Source: Fulvivirga lutea (GTDB lineage Bacteria; Bacteroidota; Bacteroidia; Cytophagales; Cyclobacteriaceae). From it: a DNA stretch of 64,000 nucleotides. The stretch is from contig NZ_CP070608.1 in assembly GCF_017068455.1 (NCBI RefSeq), positions 62,001 through 126,000 on the forward strand, in the 5' to 3' direction. Made by a program: the position numbers and the translations under genes. Shown here piece by piece: positions 58,511-61,677 of this stretch (positions are counted from its first letter, which is position 1; each line of letters opens with the position of its first letter). The notes under the pieces are model-generated. The model searched no databases. It saw nothing but the letters and a program-made list of their open reading frames with translations, and was not told the origin of the DNA.

Positions 58511-59284
58511 ATGAAAGAACTATTCTTAGCTGACATGATGACCATCCCGAAGGATGACCCTGTCGCATTTACATTCTTTACCGGCTACATGGCCATGTTT
58601 GCAGCCTCTGTATTCTTCTTTTTCGAAAGACAGAGCGTTTCAGACAAGTGGAAGACCTCACTACTTGTATCAGGTCTCATTACTATGATCGCAGCAGTAC
58701 ATTACTACTACATGCGAGATTATTATGCTGCTACTGGTCAGAACCCAACAGCATTACGTTACATCGATTGGACACTTACCGTACCATTGATGTGTGTTGA
58801 ATTTTATTTATTAACCAAAGCTGCCGGAGCAAAAGTATCCTTATTATGGAAATTGATCGCTGCATCCGTTTTGATGTTAGTAGCAGGTTACATTGGCGAA
58901 GCATTTGTTCCATTAAATGCCGATGGAACTGCAGCCGCAGGTGCCACTAACCACAGTGTGATGTGGGGTGTTATTTCAACTATTGGATACATCTACATAT
59001 TATACACTGCTTGGTTTGGTGAAGTTAAGGCCTTAGGAGATTCTTCAGGCAACCCGCAAGTAATTAAGGGCATCAAAATCCTGGCTTGGTTTGTATTGGT
59101 AGGTTGGGCAATCTATCCAATCGGTTACATGTGTATGCCTGGAGGCTGGTTGAACACCGGTTTAGGCTGGACATCTTCGAATGTAGATTTATTCTACAAC
59201 ATTGCAGATGCCATCAACAAGATAGGTTTCGGACTAGTTATTTATTCAGTAGCTAAGTCAGATTCAGCTACAGCAAAAGCATAA
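58511..59284 (+). CDS. Light-driven proton-pumping rhodopsin with antenna-window glycine
   Basis: 257 residues, seven helices. Helix C has the proton-pump set Asp86 (acceptor), Thr90 and Glu97 (donor) in RYIDWTLTVPLMCVEF. His64 pairs with Asp86 as in proteorhodopsin. Asp233 and the retinal Lys237 lie in helix G (IADAINKIGFG). The tuning position is Met94, which in Bacteroidota proteorhodopsins goes with green absorption. Gly153 (MWGVISTI) aligns with Gly178 of Gloeobacter rhodopsin, the residue that opens the side window for a carotenoid antenna; classic proteorhodopsin has Phe there. NDQ (Na+) and NTQ (Cl-) motifs are absent. Downstream is the retinal-forming blh. Confidence 0.95.
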   Translation: MKELFLADMMTIPKDDPVAFTFFTGYMAMFAASVFFFFERQSVSDKWKTSLLVSGLITMIAAVHYYYMRDYYAATGQNPTALRYIDWTLTVPLMCVEFYLLTKAAGAKVSLLWKLIAASVLMLVAGYIGEAFVPLNADGTAAAGATNHSVMWGVISTIGYIYILYTAWFGEVKALGDSSGNPQVIKGIKILAWFVLVGWAIYPIGYMCMPGGWLNTGLGWTSSNVDLFYNIADAINKIGFGLVIYSVAKSDSATAKA

Positions 59285-59350: not shown

Positions 59351-60250
59351 ATGGTTAAGTTAGATAAGCACTTACTTTATATTACGATATTATTGCTTGC
59401 TGCTTTTAGCTTAATTGAACTGCCTACAGGCACAGATACCCTCTTATTTCTTGTTACTATCGTTATCGTTGGAATACCCCACGGAGCCCTCGACCATGTG
59501 ATTGAATTTAATGATACTAGGCCGGATAAATTACAACTAGTCAAATTTTACAGCATTTATATAGGTCTGATCGGAGCTGTATTTGCGTGTTGGTATTTTT
59601 TTCCGCAGGTCTCTTTTCTCTCCTTTATTGCTATTTCGGCCTATCATTTTGGGCAGTCCCAGCTGTTTTACTTGAATCTAAAAGGGCGTTTCGTGCATCT
59701 GTATTATTTAAGCTGGGGCATGCTGCTTCTTTCAATGATCATATATACTAATATCGCTGAATGCATGGCAATCTTTGACTCATTGGAATGGTTGGAAGTT
59801 TCTCAATTGAATAGTACACTCTGGCTCTCTCTTCTTATTAAAAGCGGCACATTGTGGATAACACTTACCTGCCTTTATCTTGCCAAAGGTCAGATTTCTA
59901 TGAAAGAATTTGGCAGAGAACTTCTGCTCCTGGCTATTTTATTAGGTTCGTCACTCGTAACAAATGCCGTTATTACGTTCACCATTTACTTTGGAATTTG
60001 GCATTCCTTCCGTTCCTTACTTTTAACATTTCAGTCCATTAGAAAAAATGTTGGCAACTCCATTTCTAAGTTTATCAAGGCTGCCATGCCGTTCAGTGTA
60101 GCAGGAATTTTATTTTTAGGATTAGGATACTATCTCTCCTTTCATTTCGATTTAGGGATTTCTATCTACATGATTTTTATTATCATTATTTCCACACTGA
60201 CGGTGCCACACTTATTTGTAATGAATAAGTTATATAATCCATTACATTGA
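59351..60250 (+). CDS. blh: Beta-carotene 15,15'-dioxygenase, Brp/Blh family
   Basis: 299 residues, about 7-8 membrane helices. Conserved metal-binding histidines of the family are in GIPHGALDH (His44, His49), SAYHFGQ (His99), FGIWHSFRS (His218) and VPHLFVMN (His287). The enzyme cleaves beta-carotene in the membrane into two molecules of retinal, the chromophore of the rhodopsin encoded 66 bp upstream. Transcribed in the same direction, followed after 13 bp by a MarR-like regulator. Carotenoid synthesis genes (crtB, crtI, crtY) are not in the window. Confidence 0.93.
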   Translation: MVKLDKHLLYITILLLAAFSLIELPTGTDTLLFLVTIVIVGIPHGALDHVIEFNDTRPDKLQLVKFYSIYIGLIGAVFACWYFFPQVSFLSFIAISAYHFGQSQLFYLNLKGRFVHLYYLSWGMLLLSMIIYTNIAECMAIFDSLEWLEVSQLNSTLWLSLLIKSGTLWITLTCLYLAKGQISMKEFGRELLLLAILLGSSLVTNAVITFTIYFGIWHSFRSLLLTFQSIRKNVGNSISKFIKAAMPFSVAGILFLGLGYYLSFHFDLGISIYMIFIIIISTLTVPHLFVMNKLYNPLH

Positions 60251-60262
60251 TATCTTTGGTTC

Positions 60263-60778
60263 ATGCAATTTGATGAGGCCAAAGAAGAATTTATCAAAAA
60301 CTGGGGTGCCTTAGGTACTTCGTGGGGCATTAATAAAACTGTCGCCCAAATTTTTGCCCTTCTCATGATCAGCCCCCGTGAATTATCTGTTGAAGAAATT
60401 ATGGAAGAGCTGCAAATCTCACGAGGCAATGTAAGCATGAATCTTCGCACGTTGATTGACTGGGGATTAGTTTATAAAACAACACACAAAGGAGAACGGA
60501 AGGAATATTTTTACTGTGAACGGGATATCTGGGCTGTAACACGTAAGGTGGCAGAAGTGAGAAAAAACCGTGAAATTCAACCAGTAGTTAAAGTGTTGGA
60601 ACAGGTCTCACAACTTGAGGGAAAAGAAACTGAAGAAACCAAAGAGTTCAAGCGTGTAATGAATGAGTTACTGGAAGTGGTAAGAACAACTGATCAAACC
60701 TTAACCTACTTCATCAATAGCGATAGAACTTGGGTCTCAAAAACAATCCTCGAATTTCTTAAAAATAAGAAAGGCTAA
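60263..60778 (+). CDS. GbsR/MarR-type transcriptional regulator
   Basis: 171 residues. A winged-helix domain covers about 20-95: ELSVEEIMEELQISRGNVSM and LRTLIDWGLVYKTTHKGERK. The second half (about 95-165) is a helical dimerisation region. The N-terminal KNWGALGTSWGINKTVAQIF segment is typical of the GbsR group. In Bacillus GbsR controls glycine betaine genes; here none are near. It is 13 bp downstream of blh and may be co-transcribed with it, so it could control retinal/rhodopsin expression. That role is inference. Confidence 0.88.
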   Translation: MQFDEAKEEFIKNWGALGTSWGINKTVAQIFALLMISPRELSVEEIMEELQISRGNVSMNLRTLIDWGLVYKTTHKGERKEYFYCERDIWAVTRKVAEVRKNREIQPVVKVLEQVSQLEGKETEETKEFKRVMNELLEVVRTTDQTLTYFINSDRTWVSKTILEFLKNKKG

Positions 60779-61677
60779 AAATAAATCTCCTGAGCCACTC
60801 GGTATGTGTTGGCGTGAGCTTCTATAATGTCTTTGATTTTCTCTGAGTAGCCGCCACCCATACTGGCTACAATCGGAATTTCATTTTTATAGGCCGCTTC
60901 AAACACCAATTGATCACGCTTTTTACAACCAGCAATAGACATTCCCAGTCTACCTAACTTATCAGTGGCCAGCACATCCACTCCTGATTGGAAGAAGATA
61001 AAATCAGGCTTCACAATATCCAACAAATGTTTCAAATGGAAATCTAGAATTTTCAAATACTCTGCATCGTCAGTTTTATCGGGTAGTCCGATATCTAAAT
61101 CCGATTGCTCTTTGTGCATGGGGTAGTTCTTAGCTCCATGCATGCTGAAAGTAAAAACCCTCGGCTCATTTCGAAATATCTGTGCTGTTCCATTGCCCTG
61201 ATGCACATCAAGATCGACCACCAGAATTTTTTGAGCCTTATTTTCATTAAGCAAATAGTTGGCGGCAATGGCTATGTCATTCAAAAAACAAAAGCCCTCT
61301 GCCCTATTCGTATAAGCGTGATGCGTGCCACCTGCAACATTCATAGCCACACCATATTGCAACGCAAACTCTGCACACTCTATGGTACCGGCATTGATGG
61401 TGATTTCCCTCTCCACAATCAAATCGGATAAAGGAAAGCCGCTTCTGCGTTCTTCTTTTCTGGTCAATTGCAGATTTTTTAATCGCTGCCAATAATCAGC
61501 ATCGTGGGTTGCAAGTATCTCTGCCTCGGTAAGTTTTCTTGGTTCAAAAAGATTGGCCTGACTGATGGTACCTTCATAAAGCAATTGCTCTGGTAACAGA
61601 TCATACTTCTCCATTGGGAAGCGGTGCCCTTCCGGCAGCGGATGATTATAAATCTTTGACCAGGCTATTTTAAGCAT
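60775..61677 (-). CDS. Histone deacetylase family (class II-like) amidohydrolase
   Basis: 300 residues. Active-site pair His119/His120 (AGGTHHAYTNR), zinc ligands Asp157/His159 (VVDLDVHQGNGT) and Asp239 (TDKLG), plus Tyr in a late GGGYS motif. Bacterial members remove acyl groups from polyamines, acetoin-utilisation proteins or other amides. The substrate is not known here. Overlaps the 3' end of the convergent regulator by 4 bp and abuts the DUF2452 gene upstream. Confidence 0.92.
   Translation of the reverse strand: MLKIAWSKIYNHPLPEGHRFPMEKYDLLPEQLLYEGTISQANLFEPRKLTEAEILATHDADYWQRLKNLQLTRKEERRSGFPLSDLIVEREITINAGTIECAEFALQYGVAMNVAGGTHHAYTNRAEGFCFLNDIAIAANYLLNENKAQKILVVDLDVHQGNGTAQIFRNEPRVFTFSMHGAKNYPMHKEQSDLDIGLPDKTDDAEYLKILDFHLKHLLDIVKPDFIFFQSGVDVLATDKLGRLGMSIAGCKKRDQLVFEAAYKNEIPIVASMGGGYSEKIKDIIEAHANTYRVAQEIYF

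Follow-up and report, generated by a model that had tools for sequence, protein, structure and literature searches.

The stretch of DNA analysed here (hereafter the window) comprises 64,000 nucleotides of the Fulvivirga lutea genome (NCBI RefSeq assembly GCF_017068455.1, contig NZ_CP070608.1, positions 62,001 to 126,000 of the forward strand) and encodes a proteorhodopsin, followed by a gene for retinal production and a regulator gene. A preliminary description, made from the letters alone, had proposed that the rhodopsin is a proton pump in which a glycine of helix E provides a docking place for a light-harvesting carotenoid, and the residues it named (Asp86, Thr90, Met94, Glu97 and Gly153) are located exactly where it had placed them. 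The features of the gene are as follows, with row counts referring to the alignment of homologues described below.

58511..59284, + strand: proteorhodopsin gene, 257 amino acids (open frame; PF01036, E 4.9e-42; best PDB match by both sequence and fold, NM-R1, 9jou)
58766..58801, + strand: codons 86-97, helix C, with Asp86 (counterion), Thr90, Met94 (spectral tuning) and Glu97 (proton donor), these residues being identical in 160/160 full-length rows
58967..58969, + strand: codon of Gly153, the putative carotenoid-window glycine of helix E, placed by alignment with carotenoid-binding pumps
58979..58981, + strand: codon of Thr157, a helix-E hydroxyl one turn past Gly153 (Thr157 in Kin4B8, Gly146 in NM-R1)
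59126..59128, + strand: codon of Tyr206, equivalent to Tyr204 of Kin4B8 and Tyr207 of xanthorhodopsin (Tyr in 165/165 aligned rows)
59138..59140, + strand: codon of Pro210 (Ser208 in Kin4B8 and Thr198 in NM-R1 at the same site)
59219..59221, + strand: codon of Lys237, the retinal Schiff-base lysine, aligned with K257 of Gloeobacter rhodopsin and K233 of Kin4B8 (160/160 rows)

A search of the whole genome (one contig, 4,137,993 bases) with the rhodopsin protein returned this single matching place at E <= 0.001. Along with the PF01036 match (Bac_rhodopsin) and the retinal lysine, the protein has the expected fold: its AlphaFold2 model, ligand-free and built from 30 aligned sequences, reached a mean pLDDT of 89.2 and a pTM of 0.86, and the top Foldseek match in the PDB was 9jou, whose entry title describes the zeaxanthin-bound light-driven proton pumping rhodopsin NM-R1 (root-mean-square deviation 1.6, 54% identity). 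Zeaxanthin-bound Kin4B8 (8i2z), Gloeobacter rhodopsin and xanthorhodopsin followed at ranks 24, 25 and 32. Since the sequence match to 9jou has an E of 2.2e-71, the likeness to carotenoid-binding pumps is not due to chance. The preliminary description had called for placement in a rhodopsin tree, and there a 100/100 branch separates the five xanthorhodopsin-type references from the remaining 20 rows, with the F. lutea protein on the proteorhodopsin side among the Bacteroidota rows (starred; support 98/93 for 6 rows). The tree program warned of long branches for HeimdallR1, the Exiguobacterium rhodopsin (ESR), the divergent homologue L092 and blue proteorhodopsin (BPR), and the joining of ESR to the xanthorhodopsins is possibly false. 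The best three named matches, at 82-88% identity, come from two Flammeovirgaceae bins and one Fulvivirga sp. bin. On this one gene the host would be a Bacteroidota of the Cytophagales type, although rhodopsins of about 80% identity occur in several other families in a class-wide search. Asp86, Thr90 and Glu97 form the Asp-Thr-Glu motif at the positions of bacteriorhodopsin 85, 89 and 96, which supports the earlier reading of a proton pump, and Met94 is the green-type residue at the tuning position, in keeping with the predicted green absorption; a Leu or Met at this position has been taken to indicate a putative green pigment (PMC4831467). Judged by its sequence, the gene would encode a light-driven pump that absorbs green light, moves protons outward and belongs to the Bacteroidota proteorhodopsin clade.

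In a joint alignment of chain stretches, Gly153 stands without gaps at the place of Gly178 of Gloeobacter rhodopsin, as had been claimed, as well as opposite Gly156 of xanthorhodopsin, Gly153 of Kin4B8, Gly142 of NM-R1 and Gly141 of HeimdallR1, and the same site is occupied by Phe153 in blue proteorhodopsin 4knf and by Ser146 in ESR. The accompanying claim that classical proteorhodopsins carry a bulky residue here is borne out by the blue proteorhodopsin compared, but it does not extend to the Bacteroidota, where glycine is the rule. A structural model in which Gly153 turns away from the retinal ring had been named as a result that would speak against docking; the fold match to 9jou makes such an orientation unlikely, the position itself being derived from the alignment with solved structures.

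To what extent this glycine is shared can be judged from a class-wide search, in which 87 of 395 genomes gave a rhodopsin match. Four of these held only fragments and were excluded (G057, G126, G160 and G352), and two others (G351 and G387) each added a second copy. The resulting alignment has 165 rows (158 distinct sequences), made up of 84 unnamed loci, the F. lutea protein and 80 named loci, the latter being the best 80 of at least 486 confirmed matches and thus leaning to close relatives; counts over 160 rows omit the divergent L092-L095 and the short L028. Gly153 is kept in 164 of the 165 homologues, the F. lutea protein included, the sole exception being a Phe in L076. It is among the 66 of 230 evaluated positions that are at least 98.5% identical across the 160 full-length rows and, at 159/160, it is comparably invariant to Asp86, Thr90, Met94, Glu97 and Lys237 (160/160 each). 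None of the 61 sequences with 70% identity or more to the F. lutea protein, itself counted, departs from it either, while the two helix-E positions that follow vary in the alignment. According to a 2026 paper, every Bacteroidota proteorhodopsin in its subtree I carries this glycine (PMC13043013), and because it is also near-universal among the relatives sampled here, the glycine is an instance of an already described pattern. The alignments therefore confirm the observation as real, but Gly153 is not distinctive of this protein, and the novelty of the finding is low, as the glycine is already known to be general in the clade.

Outside the 160 rows, the Met94 position is Ile or Leu in L092-L095 and the Glu97 position is Lys or Gln in L093-L095. 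Two of these, L094 (1966-2769, - strand) and L095 (1905-2573, + strand), are divergent PF01036 rhodopsins with Asp-Thr-Gln instead of Asp-Thr-Glu and the lysine kept, and both lack the helix-F tryptophan found in all 160 full rows (W199 in the F. lutea protein). L095 is the second rhodopsin of G387, beside a proteorhodopsin, and L094 is the only match in G290.

The residues around the glycine give a more differentiated view of the pocket. The glycine together with the tyrosine equivalent to Tyr204 of Kin4B8, for which a role is proposed, have been put forward as the criteria for carotenoid binding (PMC12308411). Both are present, as Gly153 at the place of xanthorhodopsin Gly156 and Tyr206 at the place of xanthorhodopsin Tyr207, although Tyr206 does not discriminate, because the blue proteorhodopsin compared also carries it. 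Binding of hydroxy-carotenoids has further been tied to polar residues at Kin4B8 positions 208 and 209, which are Ser-Tyr in Kin4B8, Thr-Asp in KR1, Thr-Glu in EinA29G6, Met-Ala in xanthorhodopsin and Met-Leu in Gloeobacter rhodopsin, and the S208A change in Kin4B8 lowers zeaxanthin binding to 2% (PMC12308411). The F. lutea protein has Pro210-Gly211 at these sites, and NM-R1 has a polar residue at the first site only (Thr-Pro). On helix E, Thr157 is polar in the F. lutea protein as it is in Kin4B8, where it is counted among the key fenestration residues (PMC13093654).

Set against known pumps, the closest is NM-R1 (9jou), which belongs to the same Bacteroidota clade, is 55% identical and shares the Asp-Thr-Glu triad with Met, the glycine (G142) and the conserved tyrosine (Y194), but has Gly146 and Thr198 where the F. 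lutea protein has Thr157 and Pro210. KR1 of Dokdonia eikasta, a flavobacterial proteorhodopsin that binds zeaxanthin and lutein, has the helix-F Tyr-Met pair in common with it and, at the sites compared, differs in having Thr and Asp instead of Pro and Gly (PMC12308411). Kin4B8 (7ytb, and 8i2z with zeaxanthin) is of the xanthorhodopsin branch and only 36% identical, with Ser208/Tyr209 versus Pro210/Gly211, yet the residues numbered Gly153, Thr157 and Tyr204 in Kin4B8 are common to both. Gloeobacter rhodopsin and xanthorhodopsin (6nwd and 3ddl; 35% and 33% identity) share the WGxxST motif including the glycine, but they are of the other branch and use 4-keto-carotenoids (PMC12308411).

Positions 157 and 210 divide the relatives. 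Within the group of 61 sequences at or above 70% identity, 55 have Pro at position 210, 4 have Asp and 2 have Glu; Thr occupies position 157 in 55, with Ser and Ala in three each. Over the 160 rows the 157-210 pairs are Gly-Thr in 56, Thr-Pro in 77, Thr-Asp in 10, Thr-Glu in 6 and other combinations in 11, so that Gly157 is found in 56 of the 58 rows carrying Thr210. This tight table is not evidence of compensation between the two sites, because it reflects essentially a single old split instead of repeated co-change: on a quick tree of 161 rows under a simple model (L093-L095 and L028 omitted), the traits, scored as Thr/Ser or not, change four times at 157 and three times at 210. Compensation was accordingly rejected, as three independent pairs gave it no support.

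The one departure from glycine is found in L076 (G091:C21:1215-1928, - strand), from a genome estimated to be 95% complete, which has the only Phe153 among the 165 rhodopsins. Compared with the residues shared by 90% or more of the 58 Thr210-type rows, it shows the changes F37L, F59M, A62G, G153F, G157M, F161G, L196V, A200L and T210A, of which those at 153, 157 and 161 lie one turn apart on helix E and T210A affects the helix-F anchor. At 153, 157, 161 and 210, the residues Gly, Gly, Phe and Thr are found without exception in its 34 relatives of 80-86% identity from another family. G091 has no match to phytoene synthase, to Blh or, at E <= 1e-10, to the CrtZ of the F. lutea genome; it does have eight matches to the wide FA_hydroxylase family, five of which (the two shortest, of 185 and 209 amino acids, and three longer ones) showed no meaningful likeness to CrtZ when compared with it. 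Two families were searched for a second loss of the glycine, that of G091 itself (9 genomes, of which 2 gave a match) and that of the rhodopsins nearest to the one in G091 (64 genomes), and none was found. In the latter, 36 of the 64 genomes matched at E <= 1e-60 in 39 places, of which 38 were read; all 37 that cover the site have Gly (8 of them from genomes of the first set), and L023 of the first set, which makes up the 39th place, has Gly as well. L076 looks like a loss of the second pigment, a single case from a single bin; the distance from the gene to a contig end is about 1.2 kb, and the bin could lack parts of the genome or contain a contig that does not belong to it. Four rhodopsin-bearing genomes lack a CrtZ match (G091, G164, G190 and G289), and only G091 has the Phe. 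G190 has a phytoene synthase match; G164 (98% complete) and G289 (77% complete) have none and keep Gly153. A general rule that the glycine is lost wherever the carotenoid genes are missing is hence rejected in this sample.

The genes downstream of the rhodopsin bear on the supply of retinal.

59351..60250, + strand: blh, beta-carotene 15,15'-dioxygenase, which makes retinal (PF15461, E 2.2e-47; TIGR03753, 158 bits, above cut-off)
60263..60778, + strand: MarR-type winged-helix regulator (PF12802, E 5.4e-10), 12 bases past blh

The blh gene starts 66 bases downstream of the rhodopsin and is the sole TIGR03753 match in the genome. Such proximity is not universal: a blh match is present at 65 of the 80 named loci and at 40 of the 85 others (flanks often short), and lies directly downstream on the same strand at 53 of the 156 loci having at least 900 bases of room. 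The MarR-type regulator is possibly on the same transcript as blh, and a homologue occurs at 3 of the 80 named loci and 1 of the 85 others, which include the F. lutea locus itself and many short flanks. A histone-deacetylase-family protein (window 60775-61677, - strand; PF00850, E 5.6e-60) adjoins the three-gene group. At 24 of the 80 named loci, a lycopene-cyclase-like match (26-33% identity to the CrtY of the F. lutea genome) starts within about 260 bases past the rhodopsin on the same strand (L103, L112, L114, L147-L153, L155, L157, L158, L161-L165, L168-L171, L173 and L174), and L156 has one on the opposite strand.

As for the carotenoid, the genome has one phytoene synthase match (C1:2321658), with a short CrtZ-type FA_hydroxylase 4.5 kb away, both within a 20-kb stretch that encodes on one strand a MerR/CarH-like regulator, a sigma-70-family factor, crtI, crtB, idi, a photolyase, the CrtZ candidate, crtD, cruF and crtY. 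The host thus has genes for making a hydroxylated carotenoid, and the search for crtZ that the preliminary description had suggested is answered by a candidate inside the cluster. Both crtI (NF058655) and crtD (NF042421) exceed their model cut-offs; crtB (PF00494), crtY (PF05834) and cruF (PF04240) are above the Pfam cut-offs and below the NCBIfam ones, and the CrtZ candidate falls into PF04116. No crtA-OH-like frame follows crtY in the 20-kb stretch, the part of the genome searched for it. The predicted products of the cluster are zeaxanthin and saproxanthin. Because the cluster includes the photolyase/cryptochrome gene and the MerR regulator, a B12-binding, CarH-like protein that scores below the model cut-off (L011:11550-12857 and L011:16536-17411, both - strand), pigment synthesis may be under the control of light. 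Across the class, a CrtZ homologue (E <= 1e-10) is present in 248 of the 395 genomes, namely 83 of the 87 with a rhodopsin match, fragments included, versus 165 of the 308 without (Fisher p 4e-15, with kinship left uncorrected).

Based upon these features, a mode of action can be put forward. Retinal would derive from beta-carotene cleaved by the Blh encoded beside the rhodopsin. With a glycine at residue 153, the protein would have an opening on its lipid-facing side, close to the retinal ring. A hydroxylated carotenoid from the cell's own synthesis, either zeaxanthin or a monocyclic 3-hydroxy carotenoid of the saproxanthin type, would most likely run along the protein and place its 3-hydroxy-beta ring in this opening, from where it may hand blue-light energy to retinal, speed the photocycle, or both. 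We consider this account of a green proton pump with a second pigment in the Gly153 opening to be reasonably likely. It draws upon the alignment of Gly153 and Tyr206, a zeaxanthin-bound pump as the nearest solved homologue (NM-R1, 54-55% identity), the binding of zeaxanthin and lutein by KR1, the carotenoid cluster, the adjacent blh, the co-occurrence of CrtZ and the invariance of Gly153. Proton pumping, carotenoid binding, the identity of the pigment and energy transfer are inferred. The preliminary interpretation is upheld in its triad, green-type Met, glycine, CrtZ-type hydroxylase and zeaxanthin-bound homologue, and fails in its contrast with the classical type inside the Bacteroidota. Several observations weigh against the proposed account, foremost that Pro210 and Gly211 occur where the tested hydroxy-carotenoid binders carry Ser/Thr and Tyr/Asp/Glu. 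Because the second anchoring residue is Pro210, affinity for hydroxylated carotenoids should not be assumed, and the simplest form of the hydroxy-carotenoid prediction is short of one supporting residue. In addition, a literature search, largely at title level, found no test of any Pro210-type pump, G164 and G289 keep the glycine without a phytoene synthase match, and no NCBIfam model matched the CrtZ candidate, so its assignment comes from family, size and position.

An antenna is one of two known outcomes for a rhodopsin-bound carotenoid, and the chief effect of the pigment may instead be to accelerate the photocycle or to play a structural part, while it passes little energy to retinal; we regard this as possible without expecting it. 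Carotenoids bound to marine Bacteroidota rhodopsins are reportedly called "photocycle-accelerating pigments" in the title of Fujiwara et al. 2025, which favors this outcome. So do two results on Kin4B8, namely that salinixanthin binds it with no detectable transfer (PMC13093654) and that its Y209F variant still binds and transfers about 18% versus about 40% (PMC12308411), the F. lutea protein having Gly at that site. It is also conceivable, if rather unlikely, that the protein is a retinal-only pump which inherited its glycine and holds no carotenoid in the cell for want of a polar helix-F anchor. Pro210/Gly211, the S208A effect in Kin4B8 (PMC12308411) and the glycine retained in G164 and G289 fit such a pump, but the constancy of Gly153 in the 61 closest sequences, next to two helix-E positions that vary, the association of hydroxylase homologues with rhodopsin and the fact that the one genome seen to have lost the glycine yielded no carotenoid genes all argue otherwise. 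That the opening takes up a keto-carotenoid, the kind used by xanthorhodopsin and Gloeobacter rhodopsin, seems very improbable. Thr157 and the lack of a polar helix-F pair are common to these two pumps and the F. lutea protein, yet no ketolase was identified among the six FA_desaturase matches of the genome: in an NCBIfam scan, three matched fatty-acid desaturase models and one a beta-carotene hydroxylase model, in each case nothing else and with scores far below cut-off; the other two had no match. CrtI and CrtD reach 51 and 42 bits on the model of the ketolase CrtO (cut-off 1000), but exceed the cut-offs of their own models.

Returning to the pump with a hydroxylated carotenoid, the sequence comparisons make an ordinary Bacteroidota proteorhodopsin with a carotenoid site probable and the extension of this interpretation to the Pro210 subgroup plausible. 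The Bacteroidota proteorhodopsins may represent two old pocket types, Gly157/Thr210 as in NM-R1 and Thr157 with Pro, Asp or Glu at 210 as in F. lutea. If both bind carotenoids, the latter would anchor the hydroxyl ring by helix E, not helix F, and be fitted perhaps to another pigment, such as a monocyclic one of the saproxanthin type, with the Phe153 relative as a natural loss of the second pigment; this is a tentative proposal that we hold with considerable doubt. The Pro210 type is of interest as it is without the residue found critical in Kin4B8, and so is the relative that lost the opening. Should a carotenoid be held by the pump, both blue and green light would be usable, or pump turnover would be faster, in a bacterium with this single rhodopsin.
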